Shown here one piece after another: positions 10,303-50,648 of a stretch of DNA of 64,000 nt. A model generated the notes under the pieces. It ran no database searches, had not been told where the DNA came from, and was given only the letters and a program-made list of their open reading frames with translations. The stretch lies in the NCBI RefSeq assembly GCF_036347055.1, contig NZ_CP108882.1, forward strand, positions 744,001 to 808,000. Direction: 5' to 3'. The stretch is from Streptomyces sp. NBC_00820 (GTDB lineage: Bacteria > Actinomycetota > Actinomycetes > Streptomycetales > Streptomycetaceae). The translations under genes were made by a program, and so were the position numbers. Position 1 is the stretch's first letter. Each line of letters opens with the position of its first letter.

Positions 10303-11025
10303 ATGACGCCCGAACCAGACCATCCCGGCCGTTTCCGCTCGTCCAGCGCCTCCTCGGTGCCTCGAGAGCCGGCGCCGCCGGCGCACGAGCCGTCAGAGCC
10401 CGAGCCGGTCCCCGAGCCGATCCACCCCGCCGTCCCGACGCCAGAACCGGCGCCGGACGATCACGACGGGCGGCGCCGGGCCCCGCCGCCCGTGGTCGGC
10501 GCGCCGTCTTCCGGCCGCGCTGTCGCCTCGGTGATCCTCGTGGCGGCGGGAGCGGCACTGTTCGATGTCGTCGCCGTACGGGCGGGAAACCCGGCGGCGG
10601 GCTGGCGCCGGCACCTGGCCGACGAGCTGGCCACACGTCCGGTGAGCGATGTGTGGATGCTCACCGGTGCCGCCGTGGCCGCCGCCGGCGGCCTCTGGCT
10701 GATCGTCCTCGCACTCAGCCCCGGGCTGCGCCACCAGTTGCCCCTGCGTTCTCCGGCCGGCTGTTCCCCGCCTCGTCTGCGGGCCGCACTGGACCGCGAC
10801 GGCGCCGCCGCTCTTCTTCGCGACGCGGCCCTGAGGGTCTCGGGCGTCAGCGCGGCTCGCGTCCGGGTTCGCCGCCACCGCGTCAAGGTCCGGGCGGACG
10901 TCCGCTTCCGCGACGCGCGGGAGGTGAAGAACGACCTCACCAACGCACTCGACGAGGAACGTGAGCGACTCGCCCTCGCCCGGCCTCCCCGAGTCGTCGT
11001 GCGTGTACGGCACCACACGCCGTAA
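10303..11025 (+). CDS. DUF6286 membrane protein
   Basis: This encodes 240 residues. Residues 1-65 are Pro/Glu-rich and disordered-looking. Two membrane helices follow (about 70-92, AVASVILVAAGAALFDVVAV; and about 115-140, LTGAAVAAAGGLWLIVLALS). The C-terminal soluble domain ends with RVRVRRHRVKVRADVRF and is the Asp23-like fold seen in DUF6286/AmaP proteins. GAGGAGG lies 6 bases before the ATG. It probably anchors the cytoplasmic Asp23 proteins together with AmaP. Confidence 0.75.
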   Translation: MTPEPDHPGRFRSSSASSVPREPAPPAHEPSEPEPVPEPIHPAVPTPEPAPDDHDGRRRAPPPVVGAPSSGRAVASVILVAAGAALFDVVAVRAGNPAAGWRRHLADELATRPVSDVWMLTGAAVAAAGGLWLIVLALSPGLRHQLPLRSPAGCSPPRLRAALDRDGAAALLRDAALRVSGVSAARVRVRRHRVKVRADVRFRDAREVKNDLTNALDEERERLALARPPRVVVRVRHHTP

Positions 11026-11100
11026 CCGACACCCGCGATCGGGCCCCACACCCGATCTGTCCGAGGAAGCCCGCCCAGACCCGAGCACCGGAGCCCGCAC

Positions 11101-11709
11101 ATGACACCGCGACCCGCACTGAACCGCATTCTGCTGGGCCTCGCCGGTCTGGTACTGCTCGGCGGCGGCCTGCTGGTCCTCGCGGCCGGCCTCGACGTCT
11201 ACCGGAGCAACCATCTGACGCCACCCACCGGCTGGCCCCTGACTCTCCCCGGCGACGTCCTGCTCGGCTCCGCCGACCGAGTCCGCTGGAGCGGCCAGGG
11301 CTGGTGGTGGTGGCCCGCGGTCATCGCCGCCCTCTCCCTCACCGTTCTGCTGGCGCTGTGGTGGCTGCTCACCCAACTGCACCGGCATCGCCCCAACACC
11401 CTGCCGGTCGGCGGCACTCCCCCGCAGACAGGCGTCGAACTGCGCAGCCGGGCCCTTGGGGACGCGATCGCCGCGGAAGCCGGCACCCTTCCGGGCGTCC
11501 AGCGGGCCCACGTCAGCATCACCGGACGAGCCGTCCACCCCCGCACACGGGTCGACCTCACCCTCACACCGCAGGGGTCGCCGAGGGACGTCCTGCAAGC
11601 ACTCTGCGCCGGCCCCCTGCGCACCGCCGACCGTTCGACAGGCCGGCCGGACATGGCCGCCGAGGCCCGACTGCGCGTCGCTCACCACAAGGCCCGCCGC
11701 GCGCAATAG
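11101..11709 (+). CDS. amaP: AmaP-type alkaline-shock membrane anchor
   Basis: This encodes 202 residues with two membrane helices (about 8-32, ILLGLAGLVLLGGGLLVLAA; and about 65-90, WWWWPAVIAALSLTVLLALW) and a soluble C-terminal domain (LRSRALGDAIAAEAGTLPGV, then RTRVDLTLTPQGSPRDVLQA). This is the AmaP architecture, in which the soluble half recruits Asp23. It is the last gene of the operon; 75 bases separate it from DUF6286. Confidence 0.78.
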   Translation: MTPRPALNRILLGLAGLVLLGGGLLVLAAGLDVYRSNHLTPPTGWPLTLPGDVLLGSADRVRWSGQGWWWWPAVIAALSLTVLLALWWLLTQLHRHRPNTLPVGGTPPQTGVELRSRALGDAIAAEAGTLPGVQRAHVSITGRAVHPRTRVDLTLTPQGSPRDVLQALCAGPLRTADRSTGRPDMAAEARLRVAHHKARRAQ

Positions 11710-12126
11710 CCCCCTCATCGGCTTTCCGCGGGGCGATCCGAAGCCACCATGGCCATCGCCCGGGTCCACCGCCGCACACCCCGCACTCCCGGCGATGCCG
11801 TGCGGTGCCCCCTCCTCACCCGTGGAGAGCGCGTGAACGTCATCAATGGTGCAGGCAGGTAATCCCGGGCATCTGCTCCACTCCACGTGACCTTCACCGC
11901 AGCAAGGTCGATACTGCCGTCAGCAGGGCTCCGACCATGGCGCCACCGATCACCGACGGATATCAGATGCCCCGTTCCCGAAGTCAGCGTCGAGTCAGTT
12001 TCGGTACCGCTGGGTAACCGTGTAGGACCCGCCTTCGACCGCCGAGATCGAAAATCGACCGTACCCGCCCCGACCAGCAGAAACATTTATCAGACGCCCA
12101 ACTGCGAGCCCCGTCAGGAGTCGCTC
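11710..12126. other. 417-bp gap before dha operon
   Basis: No gene is supported. A very short reverse-strand frame near 11915-11950 reads VIGGAMVGALLTAVSTLLR, like a membrane-protein end, but it has stop codons close upstream. The AT-richer stretch just before dhaK (AAACATTTATCAGACG near 12080-12095) is the likely dha promoter area. Confidence 0.35.
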
Positions 12127-13119
12127 ATGAAGATGCTGATCAATGTCCCCGAGACCGTGGTGGCGGATGCGCTGCGGGGTATGGCCGCCGCGTATCCGGA
12201 TCTGACCGTCGACGTGGAGAACCGGGTGATCGTCCGCCGGGACGCGCCCGTGGCCGGGCAGGTCGCCCTTGTCTCGGGCGGCGGGTCGGGGCATGAGCCG
12301 CTGCACGGCGGGTTCGTCGGACCGGGCATGCTCTCGGCGGCCTGTCCGGGTGAGGTGTTCACCTCGCCGGTTCCGGACCAGATGGTGCGGGCCGCGGCGG
12401 CCGTCGACAGCGGGGCCGGCGTGCTGTTCGTCGTGAAGAACTACACCGGCGACGTGCTCAACTTCGACATGGCGGCCGAGCTCGCCGAGGACGAGGGCAT
12501 CCAGGTCGCAAAGGTGCTGGTGAACGACGACGTCGCGGTCACCGACAGCCTTTACACGGCCGGCCGTCGCGGCACCGGCGCCACCCTGTTCGTGGAGAAG
12601 ATCGCGGGTGCCGCGGCGGCCGAGGGCCGGCCGCTGGAGCAGGTGGAGGCCATCGGGCGGCGGGTGAACGAGAACTCCCGCAGCTTCGGTGTCGGACTGA
12701 CCGCCGTCACCACTCCGGCCAAGGGCTCCCCGAACTTCGACCTGCCCGCCGGTGAACTGGAGTTGGGCATCGGCATCCACGGCGAGCCGGGGCGGGAGCG
12801 GCGCGCCATGATGACCTCCGGGGAGATCGCCGACTTCGCGGTGAACGCGATCCTGGAGGACATGACCCCGCGCAATCCGGTCCTGGTCCTGGTCAACGGC
12901 ATGGGAGCGACCCCGCTGCTGGAACTGTTCGGGTTCAACGCCGAGGTGCAGCGAGTGCTCGCGGAGCGGGGCGTGGCCGTGGCCCGCACACTCGTCGGCA
13001 ACTACGTCACCTCCCTCGACATGGCGGGCGCCTCGGTCACCCTGTGCCAGGTCGACGAGGACCTGCTGCGTCTGTGGGACGCGCCGGTGAAGACCCCCGC
13101 GCTGCGCTGGGGGGTGTGA
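12127..13119 (+). CDS. dhaK: dihydroxyacetone kinase subunit DhaK
   Basis: This encodes 330 residues, full family length. GGGSGHEPLHGGFVGPG (51-67) is the substrate-binding loop with His56. GIGIHGEPG places His218, which forms the hemiaminal with dihydroxyacetone. NYTGDVLNFDMAAELAE is also conserved. AGGAG lies 6 bases before the ATG at 12127; the frame extends further upstream but without homology. With DhaL and DhaM it forms the PTS-dependent kinase that transfers phosphate from PEP through EI, HPr and DhaM to dihydroxyacetone. DhaL starts 46 bases downstream. Confidence 0.95.
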   Translation: MKMLINVPETVVADALRGMAAAYPDLTVDVENRVIVRRDAPVAGQVALVSGGGSGHEPLHGGFVGPGMLSAACPGEVFTSPVPDQMVRAAAAVDSGAGVLFVVKNYTGDVLNFDMAAELAEDEGIQVAKVLVNDDVAVTDSLYTAGRRGTGATLFVEKIAGAAAAEGRPLEQVEAIGRRVNENSRSFGVGLTAVTTPAKGSPNFDLPAGELELGIGIHGEPGRERRAMMTSGEIADFAVNAILEDMTPRNPVLVLVNGMGATPLLELFGFNAEVQRVLAERGVAVARTLVGNYVTSLDMAGASVTLCQVDEDLLRLWDAPVKTPALRWGV

Positions 13120-13165
13120 GGCGGCGGACTCATCGGCCAACACCCCTACCACGCAAGGAGATCCA

Positions 13166-13777
13166 GTGCTCGACGCCGATTTCTTCCGCCGTTGGATGAC
13201 GGCGACCGCCGCATCCGTCGACCGGGAGGCGGAACGGCTCACCGCCCTCGACGCGGCCATCGGGGACGCCGACCACGGCAGCAACATGCAGCGCGGGTTC
13301 ACGGCGGTCCTCGCCACCCTGGACAAGGAGCGGCCCCAGAGCCCGGGCGCCGTGCTCAAGCTGGCCGGAAACCAGCTGATCTCCACGGTGGGCGGGGCCT
13401 CCGGGCCGTTGTACGGGACCCTGCTGCGCCGGACCGGGAAGGCGCTCGGCGATGACGCCGAGGTCGGCGAGGAGCAGCTGGCCCAGGCGCTCAGGGCGGG
13501 TGTGGAGGGCGTGATGGCCCTCGGCGGCGCGGCGCCCGGCGACAAGACCATGATCGACGCGCTCGTGCCGGCCGTGGACGCGCTCGGCGACGGCTTCGCC
13601 GCGGCACGGTCGGCCGCCGAGGCGGGTGCGGCGGCCACCGTCCCGCTCCAGGCACGCAAGGGCCGGGCCAGCTACCTCGGCGAGCGCAGCATCGGCCACC
13701 AGGACCCCGGCGCCACGTCCGCGGCCCTGCTGGTCGCCGGACTCCAGGAAGCGGCGTCGGGAGGCTCCGATGAGTGA
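13166..13777 (+). CDS. dhaL: dihydroxyacetone kinase ADP-binding subunit DhaL
   Basis: This encodes 203 residues starting with GTG, with AAGGAG upstream. DAAIGDADHGSNMQRGF (29-45) supplies the Asp residues that hold Mg-ADP. GGASGPLYGTLL, GDKTMIDALVPAVDAL and GRASYLGERSIGHQDPGA are the other family signatures. DhaL keeps a bound nucleotide that is phosphorylated by DhaM and passes the phosphate to the substrate on DhaK. Its end overlaps dhaM by eight bases. Confidence 0.95.
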   Translation: MLDADFFRRWMTATAASVDREAERLTALDAAIGDADHGSNMQRGFTAVLATLDKERPQSPGAVLKLAGNQLISTVGGASGPLYGTLLRRTGKALGDDAEVGEEQLAQALRAGVEGVMALGGAAPGDKTMIDALVPAVDALGDGFAAARSAAEAGAAATVPLQARKGRASYLGERSIGHQDPGATSAALLVAGLQEAASGGSDE

Positions 13778-14180
13778 CGAGAAGTTGGTCGGAATCGTGC
13801 TGGTGTCACACAGCGCCGATGTCGCCGCCTCCGTCGCCGAGCTGGCGAAGGGGCTGGCGGGCGGTGCCACGGCCGTACCGATCGCGGCGGCCGGCGGCAC
13901 TGAGGGCGGCGGGCTCGGCACCAGCTCCGAGCTGATCTCCGCCGCGGCGGCCGCCGTGGACCGGGGCGCCGGCGTCGCCGTACTCACCGATCTCGGCAGC
14001 GCCGTACTCACTGTGAAGGCCCTGCTCGCCGAGGGCGACGAACTCCCGGACGGCACCCGGCTGGTGGACGCGCCGTTCGTCGAGGGCGCGGTGGCGGCCG
14101 TCGTCACCGCGTCCACGGGAGCGGACCTGGACGCGGTGGAGGCGGCGGCCACGGAGGCGTACAGCTACCGGAAGGTGTGA
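13770..14180 (+). CDS. dhaM: PTS-type phosphotransfer subunit DhaM (EIIA domain only)
   Basis: This encodes 136 residues, a single mannose-family EIIA domain. VGIVLVSHSADVA carries the phosphorylated His14; GTSSELISAAAAAVDRGAGV and VLTDLGSAVLT follow. The short form lacks the HPr and EI-like domains fused to DhaM in E. coli, so it must be phosphorylated by the general PTS proteins. The ATG lies inside the end of dhaL, so the two are translationally coupled. A repeat tract begins just after the stop and no simple terminator is visible. Confidence 0.93.
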   Translation: MSDEKLVGIVLVSHSADVAASVAELAKGLAGGATAVPIAAAGGTEGGGLGTSSELISAAAAAVDRGAGVAVLTDLGSAVLTVKALLAEGDELPDGTRLVDAPFVEGAVAAVVTASTGADLDAVEAAATEAYSYRKV

Positions 14181-14183
14181 GTG

Positions 14184-14314
14184 ACCCGGAGACCCAGGGG
14201 TGCAGGGGTCGGGAGACTCAGGGGATCCGGGCACCCAGGGATCCAGGGGCCCGGAGACTCAGGGGGTCCGGGTAACCCAGGGAACCCAGGGGATCCGGGT
14301 ACCCAGGGACCAGG
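14184..14314. repeat. degenerate short tandem repeat after dhaM
   Basis: About 130 bases are built from variants of CCCAGGGGATCCGGG, for example GGGATCCGGGCACCCAGGGA and GGGGATCCGGGTACCCAGGGA. In one forward frame it reads as collagen-like Gly-x-y triplets (GHPGIQGPGDSGGPGNPGNP), but that frame has no credible start or homologous body. It lies between the convergent dhaM and chitosanase genes. Confidence 0.7.
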
Positions 14315-14367
14315 CCCCGCAGTGGAGTTGCGAGGCGTTCAGCCGGAGCGGGGCGCCCGCCGGCCGG

Positions 14368-15069
14368 TCAGCCGCCGTGCCGGACGAGTCGGCGGGCCAG
14401 CCGTTCGCCCGTGGTCACCGCCGACCGGTGGTTCTCGATGGGCGTCACCCGCGCGTTCTTGAAGACGATGTACGTGACACCGGAGGACGCGCCGCCGCCG
14501 CTTGGATCGGGGTGCATGCCGAGGCGCTGGGCGGTGGCGTAGGAGGCCTCGCCGATGATGTCGCGGGGGCCGGTGTCGCCGACGACCGCGTACTGCACCC
14601 GGTCCCGGTAGATCACGGCGGCCACCGAGCCCCCGCGGACCCCCTGCACCCGGTGGTCCCAGATGCCGCTGGGGGCCGGGACCACGATGTAGGGCAGCCT
14701 CTCGGCGACGAGATGGCGGCCGTCGGACTGCTGGTAGGCGGTGGCGGCGGAGAAGTACGGGTCGGTGCGGCGGTTGCAGCGGGCGGTGGGCCGCCCGTCG
14801 CAGTCGACGTCCAGGTCGGCCTTCCAGTACACCGCCCCGCGCGTGCCGCAGACGGGCACCGTGGCGGGGGAACCGTTGTCGGTGCGGTACCGGCCGCGGG
14901 AGACCTGGGTGGCGCACCCGCGCACCCGGGCCAGCAGATCGGCGGCGGTCACCCGGCCCTCGCTATGGGCCACAGGGCGTTCGCGGGGCGGGTCGGCAGC
15001 GGTGGGCAGCGTCGTCGGGGCAAGGAGGGCGGCACCGGCCGCGGCCAGCGTCAGCGACTGAACACGCAC
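14368..15069 (-). CDS. secreted GH75-type chitosanase
   Basis: This encodes 233 residues. The N-terminus (VRVQSLTLAAAGAALLAPTT) is a signal peptide. The mature part shows the family 75 glycoside hydrolase pattern: VYWKADLDVDCDGRPTARCN, LPYIVVPAPSGIWDHR, then AVVGDTGPRDIIGEASYATA, which holds the acidic pair used for catalysis in this family, and SGVTYIVFKN. It would cut chitosan outside the cell. I chose the GTG at 15069, with GAGAGGG 9 bases upstream; an ATG at 15096 is possible and would lengthen the signal peptide. Monocistronic. Confidence 0.85.
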   Translation of the reverse strand: MRVQSLTLAAAGAALLAPTTLPTAADPPRERPVAHSEGRVTAADLLARVRGCATQVSRGRYRTDNGSPATVPVCGTRGAVYWKADLDVDCDGRPTARCNRRTDPYFSAATAYQQSDGRHLVAERLPYIVVPAPSGIWDHRVQGVRGGSVAAVIYRDRVQYAVVGDTGPRDIIGEASYATAQRLGMHPDPSGGGASSGVTYIVFKNARVTPIENHRSAVTTGERLARRLVRHGG

Positions 15070-35787: not shown

Positions 35788-36378
35788 ATGCGTTCCCGTT
35801 CCCCGGTGCGTGGCTGGCGTTGGCGGCAAAATCCGCTGCGGCGCCGCTCGGACGTCGTGGAGGCCTGGACGGTCCTGGTGATCGCCGTCCTCCTGTTCGT
35901 GGCGGCGCCCCTGACCGGGGTGGCGGCGGGTCTGCGCGCCCACGGCCACGCGCGGGACCAGGCCCGGACGCAGCGTGCCGAGCGTCATCAGGTGCGTGCC
36001 GTGGTGCTCGGGCGCACCGACGAGCGGCTGCCCATGGTGCGGGGCGACCGCGAGCACCCCTACCGGGCGGAGGTCCGCTGGTCCGAGCCGGGCGGCGGAA
36101 CGCGTACCGCGCCGGCCCGGGTGCCGGCGGGAACCCGGACCGCCGACGTGGTGACCGTCTGGTTCGACGGCCGGGGCCGCAACGTGGCCCCGCCGCCGGA
36201 CGACGCGGCCGTATGGCAGCACGCCGTCACGATCGGCGTGTGCGCGGCGGCCGGTGCGGCGGCGGTGGTGCTCCTCGGCCACGCCGTGCAGCGCCGGATC
36301 GCGCTGGGCCACCGGCTGGGCGAGTGGGAGCGGGAATGGGCCCGTACGGGACCGAGGTGGACCCAGCCCCGGACCTGA
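35788..36378 (+). CDS. Rv1733c-like two-span membrane protein
   Basis: This encodes 196 residues. It starts MRSRSPVRGWRWRQNPLRRR, has a first helix (about 32-52, WTVLVIAVLLFVAAPLTGVA), an exposed middle domain (LPMVRGDREHPYRAEVRWSE, RTADVVTVWFDGRGRNVAPP) and a second helix (about 150-173). The N-terminal Arg-rich stretch and the two-span build are those of Rv1733c-type proteins. GGAGG lies 7 bases before the ATG at 35788. Function is unknown. A small coding frame overlaps its end. Confidence 0.75.
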   Translation: MRSRSPVRGWRWRQNPLRRRSDVVEAWTVLVIAVLLFVAAPLTGVAAGLRAHGHARDQARTQRAERHQVRAVVLGRTDERLPMVRGDREHPYRAEVRWSEPGGGTRTAPARVPAGTRTADVVTVWFDGRGRNVAPPPDDAAVWQHAVTIGVCAAAGAAAVVLLGHAVQRRIALGHRLGEWEREWARTGPRWTQPRT

Positions 36379-40767: not shown

Positions 40768-40940
40768 GCGATCAGCGCATGTGCGCGCCCTCTGTGTGGG
40801 CGCCGGTGTCGCACTCCTCTCCCTCAGCCCTCATGCCGACGGTCTCCGACCGGGCCGGGCTTCCTATCGGCACCACCTCGTGACCGCGGTCTTCGCCGCC
40901 GTACCCGAGGTGCTGTTCGCGCCGCCCCGAGGCAGGTGTG

Positions 40941-41020
40941 CCCGCCTCCCGCCCGCGGCCTTCCCCTTCCCTTTCCTTACCTCCTTGCCCTCCCTCTTCG
41001 ACTTCACGTCTTCCGTCCCG
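40941..41020 (+). promoter_or_regulatory. C-rich, G-poor leader with rut-like character
   Basis: In this 80-base stretch I count 10 G against 44 C, the reverse of its surroundings, with runs such as TTCCCCTTCCCTTTCCTTAC. Unstructured C-rich RNA is what Rho binds. It lies in the 5' leader of a rho-like gene, 17 bases before its ATG, so autogenous premature termination is plausible. No open frame ending here was accepted. Confidence 0.55.
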
Positions 41021-41036
41021 AAAGGACGCGCCACCC

Positions 41037-42185
41037 ATGACCACCACGATCGAACCCTCCACCGAGGTGCGCCAGGCCCCGGTCGCCCGGACCGTCACCG
41101 GTCTCCTCGACGTCGACGCGCACGGGAAGGGGCACCTGCGGGCCGCGAACTGCCTGCCCTCCCCCGCCGACCCGCAGGTCTCCCCCGCGCTGATCCGCCG
41201 GTACGGCCTGCGCAAGGGCGACCTCGTGGAAGGCCTCCACGGGGCGCAGCGCGCCCTGACCGAGGTCACACGGATCGACGGCCGCGATCCCGGGGAGCTG
41301 CGGGGCCGCCGGCACTTCCGTGACCTGACTCCCCTGCATCCGCACGAGCGGCTCCGCATGGAACACCCGGCCTCCGGCCTGGCGGGGCGGGTCACCGATC
41401 TGCTGGCGCCGCTCGGCAAGGGCCAGCGCGGGCTCATCGTGGCCCCGCCCAAGAGCGGGAAGACCGTACTGATCCAGCAGCTCGCCGCCGCGGTCGCCGG
41501 CAACCACCCCGAGTGCCGGCTGATGGTCCTCCTGCTGGACGAACGCCCGGAGGAGGTCACCGAGATGCGCCGTTCGGTGCGCGGCGAGGTGTACGCCTCC
41601 ACCTTCGACCGGCCGGCCAAGGACCACATCGCCCTGGCGGACCTTGTGGTGGAGCGGGCCAAGCGGCTGGTCGAGGCCGGCGAGGACGTCGTCGTCCTGC
41701 TGGACTCCCTCACCCGGCTGTGCCGGGCCCACAACAACGCCTCCGCCGCGGGCGGGCGCACCCTCAGCGGCGGCGTCGACGCGGGCGCGCTGCTCGGCCC
41801 CAAGCGGTTCTTCGGTGCCGCCCGGCAGGCCGAGGAGGGCGGCTCGCTCACCATCCTCGCCAGTGTGCTGGTGGACACCGGCTCCCGTGCCGACGGCTAC
41901 TTCTTCGAGGAGTTGAAGAGCACGGGCAACATGGAACTCCGGCTGGACCGGGACCTGGCCGCCCGTCGCGTCTTCCCGCCCGTCGACATCGAGCCCACCG
42001 GCACCCGCCGCGAGGAACTCCTGCTCACTGCGGCGGAGTTGGCGGTCGTACGGGGCCTGCGCCGGGCTCTGCGTTCCCGGGAGGGCGGACCGGCCGCCCT
42101 GGAGACCCTGCTGGAGCGGATGCGGGACACCCCCGACAACGCCACGTTCCTGCGCCGCGTCCAGCCGACGCTGCCGACGGGCTGA
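41037..42185 (+). CDS. rho: short paralogue of transcription termination factor Rho
   Basis: This encodes 382 residues. RNA-binding N-domain: [40 protein letters not shown]. ATPase core: [17 protein letters not shown] (128-143), [76 protein letters not shown]. The core is intact. The long disordered Arg/Asp-rich N-terminal insertion of the housekeeping streptomycete Rho is missing, so this is probably a second Rho. The ribosome site AAAGGA is 10 bases before the ATG. An upstream in-frame stretch (from 40938) is the C-rich leader, not protein. Confidence 0.88.
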
Positions 42186-42381
42186 GTGGGGCGGACGTGC
42201 GCGGGGCGGCCGAAGCGGCCGCACCGGCCGGAGCAACCGGACTCGGCCGGAACGACCGCAACGGCCGGACACGGCCGACGTGAACGGACACGGGCGAATC
42301 GGCAGGACAGGACACAAACGCCCCAGCGACGGGACGTCGGCGACGACGACCCGAGCGGCCACTCCGACCGAAGCGATCGCA

Positions 42382-42492
42382 GCGCCCGGAGCGACCGGAC
42401 CGACGGGAGCAACCGGAGAGACCGGACCGACGGGAGCAACCGGAGTGACCGGAGTGACCGGACCGACGGGAGTAACCGGAGTGACCAGCCGG
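42382..42492. repeat. 9-bp-register tandem repeat, collagen-like if translated
   Basis: Repeats of GGAGCGACC / GGAGCAACC / GGAGTGACC alternate with GGACCGACG. One forward frame (42280-42600) reads [20 protein letters not shown], perfect Gly-x-y triplets. There is no ribosome site and no anchoring domain, so I call it DNA repeat rather than gene. The gap 42186-42609 holds nothing else; a candidate promoter for dacA may lie near 42590. Confidence 0.7.
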
Positions 42493-42609
42493 AGCACTCG
42501 GGCCGGATATGACTCCGGATCACCCAGGAGTGCGGCATCCGGGTTGCTCCGCTGGGCCGACCGGCCCCGGCAGCGCGCCACACCGCCTCCACCTTCCTAG
42601 CGTGATCAT

Positions 42610-43785: not shown

Positions 43786-43829
43786 CCGCGCGCCCGGCTC
43801 CCGGAACGGGGGACGGCCGAGGTACGGGT

Positions 43830-43861
43830 CAAAGGGGCAATGAGTTGATCTTGAAGCCCTG
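43830..43861 (+). repeat. left terminal inverted repeat
   Basis: The 32 bases start CAAAGGGGCAATGAG-T-TGATCTTGAAGC and match the reverse complement of 50566-50597 except at two positions (T/A at 16, C/T at 29). Beyond 32 bases both copies read on to GCCCCG with a small spacer difference, so the true repeat may be close to the family's 38 bases. Confidence 0.9.
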
Positions 43862-43938
43862 GGCGCCCCGTCCCGTCACCCGTTCGGCTCAGTGTCGTTG
43901 GTGTTGATGCTGTTGTCGTCTAAGCGTGGCGCGGGATT

Positions 43939-44121
43939 GTGACCTCGATCGAGCGGACCGCGTATCCGCGGTTCAAGCGGCTGATCACCGCGCATGAGCT
44001 GCATCTGTTCTTCTCGCCGACTCGCGATGAGCTTCAGGGGGCGGCCGATGCCACGGATGGTGATGAGCATCTGCTGGCCTTGTTGCTGATGCTGAAGTCG
44101 TACCTCGGCACAGCCGCCTGA
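43939..44121 (+). pseudogene. tnpA: Tn3 transposase N-terminal fragment (DUF4158)
   Basis: GTG at 43939 opens 60 codons: SIERTAYPRFKRLITAHELH, LFFSPTRDELQGAADATDGD, EHLLALLLMLKSYLGTAA then stop. This is the start of a Tn3 transposase (DUF4158 domain) of normally about 1,000 residues. The sequence leaves the family after LMLKSY, so a deletion rather than a point mutation ended it. It is 78 bases inside the left repeat, the usual position for tnpA here. Confidence 0.85.
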
Positions 44122-44162
44122 CATGGGGGCGCGCGCTTCCGAAGCTCCCGACCGACGAACTG

Positions 44163-44594
44163 TCAGGCGAGGTACTGGCCGTTAAGAAGAGGCCAGTTGG
44201 CAGTGATCGTTTCCGTCCTCCGGGAGGCAGTCTGCGAGGTTGTCCGAATCTGCCGCACTTCCCGGTCTTCGACCGATCGCCCAAGAAGGCCGCGGATTCC
44301 AGAGAGGCGCTGGCTGAAGATCCTACTGAGATTGACGTCGCACTGGTGCACAGAGATCACAGTTTCAATACGTGTTTCGTGATCTCCGAGGAAGCCGACA
44401 AGGCGGACAGCCTTGCCCACATCGATCCACCACACTGCGGGCGCTTCTGGTGCTCCTATGCGCCACAGTGCGTATGAGAGCAAGCCCGGACCTTCCGATC
44501 GAACCTGCATCTTCTGATTCAAGAGAGTGTTCGCGGCTGGCATCCGGAGCCGGTTGATGAGGATTCCCGCCTCGTCAAGTGCTACTAAGTCCAC
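44163..44594 (-). CDS. orphan cargo gene inside disrupted tnpA
   Basis: This encodes 143 residues of unknown family (AGILINRLRMPAANTLLNQK, LWRIGAPEAPAVWWIDVGKA, IETVISVHQCDVNLSRIFSQ). The GTG has GGGAG 7 bases before it. Its codon use differs from neighbours: residue 3 is TTA, with CTT and AAC/AAT-type codons common. Residues 45-75 could form strands around WWIDVG. It occupies the space between the two transposase fragments on the opposite strand, so it arrived with or after the deletion. I cannot name a function. Confidence 0.55.
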   Translation of the reverse strand: MDLVALDEAGILINRLRMPAANTLLNQKMQVRSEGPGLLSYALWRIGAPEAPAVWWIDVGKAVRLVGFLGDHETRIETVISVHQCDVNLSRIFSQRLSGIRGLLGRSVEDREVRQIRTTSQTASRRTETITANWPLLNGQYLA

Positions 44595-44679
44595 AGCCGT
44601 GCTCCCGCAGAGTAGTCGGCGTTGTCGTTCGGCAATCGCGTCATCGGGACCTTAGCCTGGGTCGCCGGGGCCCGACACC

Positions 44680-45115
44680 TGTACCGCCTTCCGCGAGGTC
44701 GGCCGCGTGATCCGCACCGTGCAGCTACTGCGCTGCCTCTCCGATCCGGCGCTTCGCCGGCGGGTGACCGCGGCGACGAACAAGGTGAAGTCGTTCAACC
44801 GGTTCTCCGAGCGGGTCGGCTTCGGTAGCCGCAGGGGCATCGCGGACAACGACCCCGTCGCGCAGGAGAAGGCAATGAAACGCTCTGGACATCGCCGAGA
44901 TCGTCCGGCAGCTGCTGGAAGAGGGTTGGGAGATCGGCCCCGGATACCTGGCCCACATCTCGCCCTACCTGACCGAGCACATCTACCGGTTCGGCAAGTA
45001 CTCCACCCACGAGCTCGGCATCCAGCCCGAGGCGTACGACCCGAAGCTCGACGTCGCCTTCACGCCGCTGCGTGAGCAGGACCTGACGGCTGGGGGCTTC
45101 AACCGGGCCGCCTGA
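44680..45115 (+). pseudogene. tnpA: Tn3 transposase C-terminal fragment with frameshift
   Basis: In one frame, TAFREVGRVIRTVQLLRCL, RRVTAATNKVKSFNRFSERV and GIADNDPVAQEKAMK match the DDE-end region of Tn3 transposases. Right after MK the sequence jumps to another frame as NALDIAEIVRQLLEEGWEIG, PYLTEHIYRFGKYSTHELGI and LREQDLTAGGFNRAA stop. About a dozen residues normally between (an FNTLIANAVIFH-type segment) are missing. With the N-terminal fragment 560 bases away, most of the gene body has gone. The transposon cannot make its own transposase. Confidence 0.85.
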
Positions 45116-45166
45116 GCCGGGCATCATTAGGGTCACGGGCGAGACTGCCTGACATGTGGGGGTGCG

Positions 45167-45586
45167 GTGAGCGCGGACGACTTGCGGAAGAAGTATGAGA
45201 TGTTCCTGGACACCGCCGCTGGCGAGGACGTGGCCCTCCCGACGGTGGATGTGTCCGGCGGGCCGTCGCGCAAGGAACTCTTGGGTGTCCTGCGTGATCG
45301 TTTCGCCGCTGAGCCTGGGCTTGCCGCGGTGCGGCTCACGGCTGGCCACACCCTGGTGGGCACCGTCCCTCGCGAGCGTGCCGAGGGCGCGGAAGGGCTG
45401 CGCAGCGATCCGGGGGCGGGCATGCTCGGCCTTCCCGGCTACTCGACGTATCCGGAGCAGCTGACCGCCCGCTGCCGGGATTCCGGGTGCCGCGATGCGC
45501 AGTACCTGTTCGAGTTCGACGACGAGAACCCACCGCTGTGTGCGGTGGATCCGGTGCATGGTCCTTTGGAACTGGAATCGAACTGA
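45167..45586 (+). CDS. small Cys/His protein, first gene of cargo module
   Basis: This encodes 139 residues. The GTG has a G-rich ribosome site (GGGGG) and is 51 bases after the transposase remnant. The N-terminal half is helical and charged (SADDLRKKYEMFLDTAAGED, RKELLGVLRDRFAAEPGLAA). The end, ARCRDSGCRDAQYLFEFDD then CAVDPVHGPLE, places three Cys and one His (C-x4-C-x15-C-x5-H), which could bind zinc. The family is not recognised. Only 15 bases separate it from the membrane-protein gene, so the two are co-transcribed. Confidence 0.65.
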   Translation: MSADDLRKKYEMFLDTAAGEDVALPTVDVSGGPSRKELLGVLRDRFAAEPGLAAVRLTAGHTLVGTVPRERAEGAEGLRSDPGAGMLGLPGYSTYPEQLTARCRDSGCRDAQYLFEFDDENPPLCAVDPVHGPLELESN

Positions 45587-45601
45587 CAGCGGGGGAACCG
45601 C

Positions 45602-46582
45602 GTGAAACTGGATGCGCTGGCCAAGCCGCTCGACCGAGCCTACGGGCCGCGTTTCTTCGTGGTGGCCTTAGTGCCGACGACCGCCGTCAGCCTGTTTCTG
45701 CTGGTGCTGGTCTGGGCCGGGGCGCCGGATACGGTCCGCTTCTCCAGGGCGTGGGAGACAGCGGCGAAGCTGGGCATCGGGGAAATCGTGCTCCTCGTAT
45801 TGGCGACTGCCCTCGCTGGGACAATCTCCATGCCTCTGCAACTGCCGCTGCTGCGTCTACTGGAAGGCCACTGGCCGACCCGGCCACAGTGGTTCGCCCG
45901 GCGGGCCGTGCATCCGGTGGCCCAGGTGGGGATCGCGTTCCAGAAGTGGCGCCGGGGGTTGGTCAATGCGGCGGCTCCCGCTGGCCGGCCGGAACGTCAG
46001 GCGGCTTGGGTGCGACTAGCCTGGCAGCGTAGCCGCTACCCGGACCAGGACTATCTGTTGCGTCCGACGGCGTTTGGCAATGCCTTGGCCGCGGCGGAGC
46101 GACGGGCCGGTCGCCAGTATGGGCTGGACGCAGTTGTCGTCTGGCCGCGGCTCGAACCACTGCTGGCCGAGCCGGTACGGGCCGCCGTCGCTGACCGGAG
46201 GATGTGGCTGGACGCCTCGGCCCGCCTGAGCGCCACCAGTCTGCTGGTGGCGCCAGTCGCGCTGGTACTGCTGTGGCAATCCGGATGGTGGCGGTTGCTC
46301 TGTCTGGCTCCTGTGCTGGTGGCGTTGCTGGCCTACTCCGCCGCTGTCCAGGCCGCTGTCGCCTACGGTGAGTGCGTCGCTGCCGCCTTCGACCTGCATC
46401 GCTTCGACCTGCTCACCGCGTTGCACCTGCCGCTGCCCGCCGACCGGGATGCCGAGTACGCACAGAACCGGAAGCTGAGCACACTTCTGCGGCAGCCCGT
46501 CGGACGGGTCTGGCAGATGCGCTACGAGCACCCGACGGCCCCACCTGCCGGGCCGCCACCTCCGGGCGGATCTACGCCGTGA
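45602..46582 (+). CDS. membrane protein, second gene of cargo module
   Basis: This encodes 326 residues. Four hydrophobic segments in two pairs: about 18-40 (FFVVALVPTTAVSLFLLVLV), 58-78 (EIVLLVLATALAGTISMPLQ), 213-230 and 237-258 (LCLAPVLVALLAYSAAVQAA). A cytosolic-looking loop (about 85-210) contains RGLVNAAAPAGRPERQAAWV and GLDAVVVWPRLEPLLAEPV. The C-terminus is Pro-rich. Residue 23 is TTA, a codon that in Streptomyces needs the bldA tRNA. Its stop faces the CHAT gene's stop with 12 bases between. No family recognised; by position it may be the membrane effector or anchor of the module. Confidence 0.7.
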   Translation: MKLDALAKPLDRAYGPRFFVVALVPTTAVSLFLLVLVWAGAPDTVRFSRAWETAAKLGIGEIVLLVLATALAGTISMPLQLPLLRLLEGHWPTRPQWFARRAVHPVAQVGIAFQKWRRGLVNAAAPAGRPERQAAWVRLAWQRSRYPDQDYLLRPTAFGNALAAAERRAGRQYGLDAVVVWPRLEPLLAEPVRAAVADRRMWLDASARLSATSLLVAPVALVLLWQSGWWRLLCLAPVLVALLAYSAAVQAAVAYGECVAAAFDLHRFDLLTALHLPLPADRDAEYAQNRKLSTLLRQPVGRVWQMRYEHPTAPPAGPPPPGGSTP

Positions 46583-46594
46583 TGGTGCGGGAGT

Positions 46595-49432
46595 TCACAG
46601 TCCGAAGTGCACGTAGGGCGCCCAGATGTGGGGCGAGCCCGGGTGCGTTCGCCGCAGCGCCCGTACGGTGCCGTGCAGGGCGCGAGCCGCGCCCTGGGCC
46701 GAAAGCCTGTTGGCGCCCTCCGGGACGAGGGTGTTGTAGAACGCCTTGACCGCGTTGACCGCGGAACCGTCCTGGAGCGTCCACATCGCCGAGATGACGT
46801 GCTCGTACCCTGCCACTTGGAGCGCGGCGGCCGGATGGATGGCCTCACCCGGCAACTTGCTGCTACCCCCAGCGCCCCAGCACACCGACAGAAAGGCCAG
46901 CCCGCCCGGCCGCTCCCGCGCCCCAGCCAGCTCCAGTACCTGCAGCATCCGGTCATGCAGTCCCAGCCCTCCGGCGTCTCCTGCAGACGGATAACCCGCA
47001 GGGCGAACTCCGTGGCAGGCGAAGTGCACCCAGTCGTACGCGGCGAGCTGCCGCAGTACGGCATCCGCTGTCGCTTCCTTCCCGAGCAGCACCTGCGCCG
47101 AGTGCTGGCGCAGGTGCTCCGCTACCGCGCGGGCTTCGGAAACGGCATGGACCAGTGGAGGATTCCCGGGCACGGCAACCGGCAGCACCATCGGCTCGGG
47201 GCCGGTGTCCCGCCAAGCAGCACGGCGGCGCCGCAGTCGCAGCAGGCTGATGAGGTTCGGCGTGTAGGAGGACACGACACGGTCGAGCACCGACTCGCCT
47301 ACGACCGGTATCCCGGCCGCGTGCAGCGGCAGCAAGGCCAAGCGACCGACCGGAGACCACCACAGCCTCGGCAGCACACCGTCCGCGCGGGCCGGGAATG
47401 AAAGCTTGTCGAGCACCGGCTTCGCCGCCGATGCCCACAGCCACGGCAGCGTCTCATCCAAGCAGTCGGCGAGATCAGCTACGCCCATCGCGCCGACTGG
47501 GCCCGAGGGGTCCCGGGCGATTTCGTCCCATGCCTCAACCAAGCGCTCGGTGTGCCGGTCGACTGCCTCCATTGTCAGCTTGGGCAATTCGATCTTCTGC
47601 GGCTGTGCGCGATCCGCCGTGACCACCAAGGCGACACCGCCGACTGCGCCTGCCGCCATGACGACGACCGGCCCGTCACTTGCGGCGGCGCGCAACTCTT
47701 CATACTCCGCAGGCAACAAGAAACGTGAGAAGCCAGGTACCTCAGCGCGCACCCGCTCGGTCGCCTCCGCCCATCGGCGGACCGCGCCCGCCCGCCGCAG
47801 GCCGTTGTGGCCGCGCACCGCCCGGAACATGTCGCTGCGCAGGGCAGTGAGGCGGTCGGCTTGGTCCCGGTCCACCCTGCCCAGGTCGCCGAGCGCCGCT
47901 TCAACGCCGTAATGGTGCGACCACAGCACGCCTCGGCCCGCGTCGAGCAACTCGACTGCTTGTCGCTTACGACGTAGAGACAGCGCCAACCCCATGGCGT
48001 CTTGCGGCACTCGCTGCCACTGCGCGAGTAGTTCCTCCTGCTCGCCGCGCTGGAGAGATGGAGTCGCCAGCAGTGGCAGTAGCTCGACCGCTTGCGTCAT
48101 CGAGCCGAGCGCACCGATCTCGTTGCCGGCAGCGGTCAGGGCGTCCGCGCGGTAACGCGCGGCGAGCACCCGCCAGCCGGCCGGTGCCGCCACGTCGTCG
48201 ACGACGGCCTTCCAGTTCTCGGTCGCGGCCTCGGCATCACCCAGAACTGGATCGTTCCTGCGCCACAACTCCAGGGATAGATTCCCAAGATAGCCAGGGC
48301 GCGCGGGGTCACCGGACGGCGCCGCGTCACAGGCACGACGCCACGCCTCAATTGCCGCGCCCCGCGGCCCTGGCTCACCGGTGACACGAGCCAGTTCGCT
48401 GAGCGTGCCGGCCCGGGCCGCCAGATACATCGGGCGCTCCCGGGCTGCCTCGCCGACCATGTCGAGGACCCTGTCGTGCAGGGCGATGGCGTCGCGAAGG
48501 CGGTCCGCCTTGGTGGGGTCACCGGACGGGAGGGCAAGGCACCAGGTTCGCAGCGCGTCCGCACAGTTCGACAGCCACCAAGGGTGGTTGAGGGATTCCT
48601 CTCCCATGCCGATCGCCGCGCGCAACTCCCGCACGGCGCATTCCGCGTCGCCATCCTGTGCACCATCCGACTGGGCACGGGCAAGCAACGCGATTCCCAA
48701 AGCGGCCTGGTCGCTGTCGTGCTGGCCCTCCCGTTCGGCCCGCGCCACTGCTTCGAACAGGCAGATGGCTTCGTTGATGTCCTCTACGGAACCGGTGAAA
48801 TCCGAGCGTGCCCGCAGTGCGTCGGCGAGCCGGGAGGAGAACCACAACTGGTCCGCCTCCCGCCGTTCCGGGTCTTCGGGCGGCGCCTCACAAACCGCTC
48901 GCAGGGTGAGGACGGCTTGGTCAAGATCAAGCATGCTGCCTGTCCGCTCGAACCGGATACGCAGAAGGCCGGCGTGAAGAGTCCGAGCGACGCGCGTCCC
49001 TTCCAACAGCGGAAGGGCGATTGCGTCATCCAGGTCATCTGGATCATCGCCGCCGTCCTCCTGCGGCGCGAGGTCGTATCGGGCGTTGAGCAGTGTGGCG
49101 AGGACGAACACGTGATGGGGGACATCCGCCCAGACACGACTCGCCTCGACCACTTTCCTCAGCATGTCGATCGCAGCGGACAGATGCACAGGCTGTTGTC
49201 CACAGCCTCGATAGCGTCCGAAGACCACGCGCGTCACCGCGCGGCGCAGGACCTCCCGGTCCGCTTGGTCGAACTCCGGGACCAACAACATGAGCTCCGC
49301 CGCCCGGACGGCCTGGGACCAAGCGACCTCACTGCCAGTGACGTATGCCTGTTCCGAAGAGACTTCGACAATGTCGAGCAGCTGCCTCTCACGATCGGAG
49401 AGCCCAGCCTGCTCACCCCTGCTGGTAGTCAT
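46595..49432 (-). CDS. helical-repeat / CHAT-domain protease-like protein
   Basis: This encodes 945 residues. Residues about 90-560 are repeated amphipathic helix pairs of TPR character (LDQAVLTLRAVCEAPPEDPE, ATENWKAVVDDVAAPAGWRV), typical for protein binding. Residues about 650-945 form a CHAT (caspase-like) domain: VLPRLWWSPVGRLALLPLHA, VSSYTPNLISLLRLRRRRAA, then YDWVHFACHG with His807 and GGLAFLSVCWGAG with Cys851, the catalytic dyad, and SPHIWAPYVHFGL at the end. The ATG at 49432 follows GGGGAGG by a short spacer; GTG at 49435 and a longer open frame are alternatives. CHAT-TPR proteins act in bacterial immunity (for example the TPR-CHAT of gRAMP/Craspase) and signalling. Confidence 0.88.
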   Translation of the reverse strand: MTTSRGEQAGLSDRERQLLDIVEVSSEQAYVTGSEVAWSQAVRAAELMLLVPEFDQADREVLRRAVTRVVFGRYRGCGQQPVHLSAAIDMLRKVVEASRVWADVPHHVFVLATLLNARYDLAPQEDGGDDPDDLDDAIALPLLEGTRVARTLHAGLLRIRFERTGSMLDLDQAVLTLRAVCEAPPEDPERREADQLWFSSRLADALRARSDFTGSVEDINEAICLFEAVARAEREGQHDSDQAALGIALLARAQSDGAQDGDAECAVRELRAAIGMGEESLNHPWWLSNCADALRTWCLALPSGDPTKADRLRDAIALHDRVLDMVGEAARERPMYLAARAGTLSELARVTGEPGPRGAAIEAWRRACDAAPSGDPARPGYLGNLSLELWRRNDPVLGDAEAATENWKAVVDDVAAPAGWRVLAARYRADALTAAGNEIGALGSMTQAVELLPLLATPSLQRGEQEELLAQWQRVPQDAMGLALSLRRKRQAVELLDAGRGVLWSHHYGVEAALGDLGRVDRDQADRLTALRSDMFRAVRGHNGLRRAGAVRRWAEATERVRAEVPGFSRFLLPAEYEELRAAASDGPVVVMAAGAVGGVALVVTADRAQPQKIELPKLTMEAVDRHTERLVEAWDEIARDPSGPVGAMGVADLADCLDETLPWLWASAAKPVLDKLSFPARADGVLPRLWWSPVGRLALLPLHAAGIPVVGESVLDRVVSSYTPNLISLLRLRRRRAAWRDTGPEPMVLPVAVPGNPPLVHAVSEARAVAEHLRQHSAQVLLGKEATADAVLRQLAAYDWVHFACHGVRPAGYPSAGDAGGLGLHDRMLQVLELAGARERPGGLAFLSVCWGAGGSSKLPGEAIHPAAALQVAGYEHVISAMWTLQDGSAVNAVKAFYNTLVPEGANRLSAQGAARALHGTVRALRRTHPGSPHIWAPYVHFGL

Positions 49433-49546
49433 CACCCTCCCCAGGCCAGGAAACGACACCGCTGGGGTGGGCGGAAGGCCACTGCAAGATGAGCAGCCTC
49501 GCAAGCCACCTCCCCGACGTGTGGGTGGCGATTGTTGCACTTCGTG

Positions 49547-49676
49547 CTCGCAGAAATGAGTAGTTCTGAGAGATCGCGCCCCTCGCCGAACCGTGTCCGG
49601 TTTGCCCACGATCTCCGTTCTCATAACCTCTCGCAGAACAGGATTCGCACAAAGCCCCTCACGATAGGTTCTGCGA
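49547..49676. other. candidate resolvase res site
   Basis: Between the CHAT gene and the resolvase start, short inverted motifs recur: CTCGCAGAA and TTCTGAGAG facing each other at 49547-49572, TCGCAGAAC at 49631-49639 and GTTCTGCGA at 49668-49676. The shared half is (T/C)TCGCAGAA. A cluster of such half-sites beside tnpR is the layout of Tn3 res sites, where the resolvase binds to cut and exchange DNA. This is inferred from symmetry and position. Confidence 0.55.
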
Positions 49677-49677
49677 C

Positions 49678-50551
49678 ATGTCAGAGCCTGCCGAACCGGC
49701 AACCACCGTCGAACAGTTCGACTGCCCCACCTGTGAAGTGCCCGCTGGAAGCGCCTGCCGCGCCCGCGGCGGCAAGGTCGCTCCGAAGTACCACACCCCG
49801 CGCTTCATGCTGGTGCCCCAGCTCCGTGCCGAGCTGGAGGTGAAGACCCCCGCCGGCCGGAGCCCCGGCCGCGCATGGGAGAGGGGGCCGGCCATCGACG
49901 CCGCGATGCCGGAGGCCGCCCCGAAGCCCACGAGAGTGGGGTACGCGAGGTGCAGTACCGCCCAGCAAGAGCTCCAGAGCCAGCTCGACGCCCTCGCCGA
50001 GGCCGGGTGCGATCCGGTCTTCTCGGAGAAGATCAGCACCCGGATCAAGGTCCGCCCGGAGTTCGTCAAGGCGATGGACTTCGCCCGCACCATCAAAAAG
50101 GCCGTCCCCACCAGCGGGTGATCCTTACGGTGTGAAGCGCCTGGGACGCGGCGCAGCCGAGCTTCTGGCCATCGCAGAGGACCTGCGCCACCACGACATT
50201 GAGCTCGAACTCCTCACCGGCCCCCTCCAGGGGATCTATGACCCGTCCGGGCATGGCACCGCCCTGTTCGCGTTCTTCGCCGGCATGGCCGAGTCCGAGC
50301 GCGAGTACATCCGGGAGAAGTCCCTGGAAGGCCAGACGTCCGCCCGCGAGCGAGGCCGTCACGGCGGGCGCCCCAAGGTCGTCGACGACGACATGGCCGA
50401 CTACGCCCGCACCCTGCGTGCCCAGGGCGTCCCTGTCCCGCAGATCGCCTGCAAACTCGTCATCCCCTCGGGAAAGAACCAAGGCGAGCACCCCTCAGTC
50501 CCCACCGTCTACCGCCTCCTCGCCGAAGCCGACGGCAACGCCGCCGAGTGA
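49678..50551 (+). pseudogene. tnpR: Tn3 serine resolvase with zinc-finger-like leader, frameshifted
   Basis: The first part (ATG at 49678) has CPTCEVPAGSACRARGGKVA then PKYHTPRF, a Cys/Cys/Cys/His zinc-binding pattern of actinomycete resolvases, followed by RVGYARCSTAQQELQSQLDA with the catalytic Ser and FSEKISTRIKVRPEFVKAMD. After AVP the frame is lost around 50,110-50,132 (an HQRVILTV tail is visible in the next frame and some residues are missing). The rest reads KRLGRGAAELLAIAEDLRHH, YDPSGHGTALFAFFAGMAES, REYIREKSLEGQTSARERGR and a C-terminal HTH (VPVPQIACKLVIPSGKNQGE) to the stop at 50551. One or more indels disrupt it, so resolution is probably lost. Confidence 0.82.
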
Positions 50552-50565
50552 GTTGCGGGGCTACT

Positions 50566-50597
50566 CAGAGCTTCAAGATCATCTCATTGCCCCTTTG
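50566..50597 (-). repeat. right terminal inverted repeat
   Basis: This is the inverted copy of 43830-43861. It begins 14 bases after the resolvase stop. Read on the minus strand it starts CAAAGGGGCAATGAG-A-TGATCTTGAAGC. Confidence 0.9.
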
Positions 50598-50629
50598 GCG
50601 CGTATCTGGGCCACACCCGCAACCGCGTG

Positions 50630-50648
50630 CCCGGCTCCCGCAGCCGGG
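50630..50648 (-). terminator. hairpin after glutaminase gene
   Basis: CCCGGCT and AGCCGGG form a 7-bp stem around a CCCGC loop, 10 bases beyond the glutaminase stop in the leftward direction. It probably terminates the glutaminase transcript. Confidence 0.5.

Follow-up and report, generated by a model that had tools for sequence, protein, structure and literature searches.

Bacterial gasdermins are activated by neighbouring caspase-like proteases, and to our knowledge few CHAT or caspase-like proteases of the bacteria considered here have a known partner. A two-gene, membrane-associated conflict system consisting of EACC1 and a caspase has been described as System 4 by Kaur et al. (2020; PMC7159879), who also described MoxR-vWA ternary systems. 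In the Craspase of type III-E CRISPR, the CHAT protease is Csx29 (PMC9729208, PMC10028731). Among the open-licence papers returned by literature searches, none described, in its title or abstract opening, the gene set analysed here, which encodes a small Cys/His protein, a membrane protein (MEM), and a CHAT protease. Judged by its sequence, this set appears to encode a so far undescribed, membrane-linked switch for immunity or suicide.

The gene set is located in a 64,000-nucleotide stretch of DNA from Streptomyces sp. NBC_00820 (the window). An ORF check confirmed the three genes named in the preliminary description. The genes for the small protein (45167–45586, plus strand; 139 aa, GTG start) and MEM (45602–46582, plus strand; 326 aa, GTG start) share a strand and are separated by 15 bases, while 12 bases separate MEM from the convergent CHAT protease gene (46595–49432, minus strand; 945 aa, ATG start, within a longer open frame of 1035 aa). 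Neither the small protein nor MEM had an accepted Pfam family, which agrees with the initial remark that the small genes match no recognised family. PADLOC matched none of its families to the four window proteins tested.

With gasdermins, the module shares a proposed logic, in which a protease would free a membrane-damaging partner; MEM, however, is predicted to be an integral membrane protein, with an all-helical model, rather than a soluble pore former of the gasdermin kind. System 4 (Kaur et al., 2020; PMC7159879) and the present module are alike in combining a small alpha+beta protein and a membrane-located part with a neighbouring protease of the caspase superfamily, with CHAT counted as caspase-like; both occur in actinobacteria, with scattered cases in other groups, and vary in the domains attached. 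However, the passages of that study that describe the EACC1 system place a single membrane helix within the small protein and the effector domains on the caspase itself, as fusions (PMC7159879), whereas the module analysed here has a small protein modelled without a membrane segment and a separate, four-segment MEM. No EACC1 domain match was found for the window small protein, and only one of 37 members of its family showed a weak match (E 0.04). The window protease resembles Csx29, as outlined in the Craspase reports, in being a CHAT protease with a large helical/repeat N-terminal part and a candidate partner beside it (PMC9729208, PMC10028731), but it did not match the Csx29 model (NCBIfam, E up to 1), and no CRISPR-like direct repeats or repeat array were seen in positions 36000–58000 of the window. 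Some relatives of the small-MEM pair occur in operons with ChlI-type AAA, ChlD-like, CHAT-like, and STAND genes and thereby recall the MoxR-vWA ternary systems as outlined by Kaur et al. (2020), although these relatives add the small-MEM pair and, in the window, MoxR AAA and vWA genes were absent among the genes tested and no such AAA gene stands beside the module.

Structure prediction for the small protein yielded one CBS-like half (approximately residues 9–82), a loose linker and a zinc-ribbon motif, with no membrane segment. The zinc-ribbon ligands in the window protein are C103, C108, C125, and H131; in an alignment of 39 small proteins, including that of the window, the first and third Cys were present in 39/39, the second Cys in 34/39 and the His in 35/39. 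As a sequence family, the CBS domain (PF00571) was matched by only one of 37 small proteins (E 0.17), and the CBS ligand signature GxxTxxD occurred in 3 of the 39. A direct homology search with the small protein returned itself alone, and its family surfaced through gene position and a profile whose source loci had been picked for their position upstream of MEM. Small ORFs ended in ATGA or GTGA in 30 of 39 cases, a pattern as in overlapping genes. A conserved stretch ending in LPG precedes the zinc ribbon (approximately residues 85–95 of the window protein, in the low-confidence linker) and might serve for docking or cleavage.

MEM contains four hydrophobic segments, whose limits were set by hand; a basic domain separates the second from the third. 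The cytosolic part is placed at approximately residues 81–206. Almost no outside loop and no sizeable outside domain were predicted, so that an effector or anchor fits better than an outside receptor; this anatomy suggests a possible pore or effector role. No convincing solved structural relative was found, and no gasdermin occurred among the matches listed. MEM has many database homologues and was not found in plasmid, phage or viral collections. A search for a known housekeeping role of the MEM encoded by the module returned none.

The CHAT domain (PF12770) spans residues 661–944 of the window protease (E 3.7e-32; 112.4 bits versus a cut-off of 24). The His807/Cys851 dyad claimed for this protein is intact, with codons at 47012–47014 and 46880–46882, respectively, on the minus strand (positions computed from the ORF). 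Loss of the dyad in homologues was also sought: in module-linked CHAT proteins His807 aligned to His in 34/34 and Cys851 to Cys in 33/34, the one missing equivalent (L054) being due to truncation of the protein by a contig end. In a wider set of 72 CHAT proteins, including that of the window, the His was present in 71 and the Cys in 68. The window protein has many database homologues, many of them annotated with TPR, for which the window protein itself had no Pfam match. One relative (P0122) is full-length and 92% identical, and is named as from Streptomyces sp. NBC_00690; an identical protein is encoded at locus L112 (genome G094).

Locus L112 also helped to define the mobile element on which the module resides. 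It carries the same cargo, with 91% DNA identity to window positions 44673–50618, in a larger element, whose left end region shares 92% identity with window positions 43807–44104. In the window, degenerate inverted ends (43787–43882 and 50545–50640; 71% complementary to each other) enclose a 3' piece of a Tn3-family transposase gene (44707–45075, plus strand; PF01526, E 1.3e-8) and two plus-strand resolvase pieces in different frames, of which the N-terminal piece (49678–50121; PF24623, E 1.1e-10; PF00239, E 6.4e-9) includes a zinc-finger-like part and the C-terminal piece lies at 50132–50551 (PF00239, E 4.5e-10). A transposase, a resolvase and inverted ends of the Tn3 family are thus all present, though as broken or degenerate pieces. 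The initial placement of the genes on a transposon therefore holds for the element as such, but the window copy has decayed. At L112 the ends are cleaner (60 nt, 93% complementary) and the resolvase occupies one frame; the transposase is also spread over two ORFs. Comparison of the window with 19.9 kb of L112 showed a match confined to the element, which indicated that the insertion sites of the two copies differ and fits movement as a unit. No clear target-site duplication was seen. The mobile element carrying the module was found in these two genomes. Between the two transposase pieces of the window, a lower-GC segment (44104–44673) that is unmatched in the L112 element contains an ORF of 143 aa on the minus strand, for which Pfam gave no accepted family.

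Conservation of the gene set was investigated with a MEM-alignment scan of species genomes, which yielded 116 relatives, 80 of which were covered by the counts (the five extra stretches L112–L116 lie outside these counts). Small and CHAT genes were both detected at 31 of the 80 loci, the small gene only at 17, the CHAT gene only at two and neither at 30, most of the last group belonging to a distant MEM branch. Among the 45 strongest MEM matches (E below 1e-90), the small gene was present in 44 and the CHAT gene in 28; adding L112, L113, and L114 gave 48 loci, 47 with the small gene and 31 with CHAT. The CHAT profile used was stricter than Pfam: L076 was scored as having neither partner, yet a neighbouring gene has a Pfam CHAT match (E 1.6e-18), and L048 was scored as CHAT-less, yet encodes a CHAT-like protein (Pfam CHAT, E 1.1e-5). 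Likewise, L096 was scored as having neither, yet a small-gene match adjoins a MEM gene broken over frames. Relative to the small-MEM pair, CHAT genes at 34 loci were located upstream on the same strand (15) or the opposite strand (5), or downstream on the same strand (12) or the opposite strand (2). Most of the loci come from actinomycetes; three belong to Variovorax, two to cyanobacteria and one to an archaeal bin. In the distant MEM branch (most of L082–L111), neither a small gene nor CHAT was detected, and DUF4132 or succinate-dehydrogenase-like genes were found nearby in those loci tested; we know of no role for this branch near such genes.

Searches within the genus gave a similar picture. 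The small-protein profile, to which some of the genomes concerned had also contributed, gave 15 matches in 13 of 295 genomes. Ten had E below 1e-6, and nine of these, including that of the window itself, lay directly upstream of MEM on the same strand; no MEM stood beside the tenth (G259) or beside any of the five weaker matches. CHAT matches occurred in 48 of 61 genomes (G000–G060), in which 15 of 24 MEM-family matches lay within 5.5 kb of a CHAT match, versus an expectation of approximately 0.3%, given 2.2 CHAT matches per genome (the CHAT list for this test was typed by hand for the genomes concerned). At eight of nine divergent MEM-CHAT loci (L006–L031), the best small match fell within the gap that precedes MEM, often weakly (E 7e-8 to 1.3); L026 had none. 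Distance matrices of 31 loci correlated at 0.82 for MEM-small, 0.81 for MEM-CHAT and 0.83 for small-CHAT, and at 0.78, 0.77, and 0.72, respectively, for 26 loci without the most distant ones (permutation value 2e-4, the smallest possible); part of this correlation may stem from shared descent. The distance test left out L078, L099, and L040, whose CHAT pieces were short or cut; dropped rows were L113, which duplicates the genome of L038, and L117 and L002, which equal the window. Conservation of the small-MEM-CHAT gene set, on which the preliminary description had staked its proposal, is thus well supported. None of the three findings that this description had named as counting against it was encountered in these searches: the genes do occur together, homologues keep the dyad, and no known housekeeping role of the module's MEM came to light.

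Not all close relatives of the small-MEM pair have CHAT as a partner. At sixteen of the closest loci, the small gene was present but CHAT was not detected, and in 11 of these a ChlI-like AAA gene lies downstream. In nine of the 11, genes for a ChlD-like and a divergent CHAT-like protein come next, together with STAND-related sequence; L055 and L071 end too soon to show these. Three STAND proteins tested with Pfam (L043, L067, L079) combined TIR or TPR with NACHT or another ATPase part; NCBIfam covered the ChlI- and ChlD-like proteins of L048. At L032 and L033, an 1848-aa SAV_2336 plus NACHT-like protein occurs where close relatives have CHAT. In a MEM tree of 59 rows, six of them from the distant group, these two loci fell within a clade of CHAT loci that has strong support and includes L112, although the inner branch is weak. 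One unmatched protein is common to L058 and L060; the contig of L074 is short. In an archaeal bin (L072, 6200–11029; a single contig of a metagenome bin), a trypsin-TPR gene (Trypsin_2, E 5.4e-10) lies approximately 2 kb upstream of a small gene that is shorter than usual and encodes just the zinc part; MEM follows this small gene, and a clostripain-family gene is nearby. PADLOC gave weak matches only, for six of the partner proteins. The constant unit is therefore the small-MEM pair, and its protease or NTPase partner is exchangeable. For the sensor-protease-effector layout suggested earlier, the protease beside a membrane protein stands, but there is no fixed trio, as the partner swaps around the pair.

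At L048, the small, MEM, ChlI-like AAA, ChlD-like, CHAT-like, and STAND genes form an operon (10963–14946), and similar ChlI/ChlD operon genes occur in L043, L052, L053, L059, L067, L070, L073, and L079. Together with the small-MEM pair, this ChlI/ChlD/CHAT-like/STAND operon is possibly a distinct conflict system.

A constant pair, recurring protease or NTPase partners and a MEM without an outside domain together argue for a protease-controlled membrane effector in which the small protein is the link. A conflict role is favoured by a distribution that is sparse, crosses phyla and involves a mobile element, and the NACHT, TIR, TPR, and AAA-type partners at other loci, which are typical of conflict systems, support the same interpretation. 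We infer such a conflict or defence role, and a mechanism for it, in the form of a mobile membrane-linked protease module, probably of the abortive-infection type, a tentative assignment held with a little less than even confidence. The lack of PADLOC families for the window proteins and the negative searches for MEM in plasmid, phage and viral collections speak against it. In such a module, the small protein would sit on the cytosolic domain of MEM and connect MEM with the protease. Infection or stress would be sensed by the repeats of the CHAT protein, and the protease, once switched on by them, would cut the small protein or the cytosolic part of MEM. Freed MEM might damage or depolarise the membrane, after which the infected cell would die or stop growing. 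A more specific proposal, which we consider doubtful, is a novel type of membrane death effector, gated by a protease and structurally different from gasdermins, in which a four-segment, channel-like MEM is kept inactive by a cap, the CBS-like/zinc-ribbon protein, and freed by an acquired protease platform, whether CHAT, a ChlI/ChlD-CHAT-like-STAND relay or, perhaps, an archaeal trypsin-TPR protein. If a protease does free a membrane effector, the module would parallel caspase-gasdermin death with unrelated parts. The constant pair provides a candidate substrate and effector for the CHAT protease, and two conserved families without an accepted Pfam match would gain a genomic context.

A close rival to the membrane-effector reading reverses the roles, with the small-MEM pair as a sensor or membrane anchor that detects membrane or metabolite disturbance via MEM and the CBS-like domain, and CHAT as an executioner released to cut other cell proteins. 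Its constant pair with exchanged partners resembles the constant membrane component that, in the relevant passages on the EACC1 system, is proposed as a sensor (PMC7159879). Among the CBS-like folds in the structure-match lists are domains that regulate channels and enzymes, and most ChlI-type operons carry STAND proteins with possible effectors of their own. However, MEM is almost without a predicted outside part and the GxxTxxD signature is rare among the small proteins, which leaves this sensor arrangement a real possibility rather than a likely one.

That the genes form a membrane protease module for regulation or stress responses in actinomycetes, without a conflict role, appears unlikely. 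Some CHAT proteins do have cellular roles, for example HetF, which is described as a divisome component (PMC8406250), and the negative PADLOC result for the window proteins would fit such a function, but the sparse, cross-phylum and mobile-element distribution and the STAND, NACHT, and TIR partners are better suited to a conflict role. Chance association of three unrelated cargo genes is extremely improbable: the window copy does sit in what remains of a transposon whose transposition genes are broken, but the conserved co-occurrence of the genes in different genera and phyla, with four arrangements, contradicts this explanation.

Immediately left of the element, the window contains a Rho-factor-like gene (40938–42185, plus strand) with Rho RNA-binding and ATP-synthase-type domains. 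A collagen-like ORF (42280–42600, plus strand) is rich in GATGPTG-type triplets and shows a 9-base repeat pattern.
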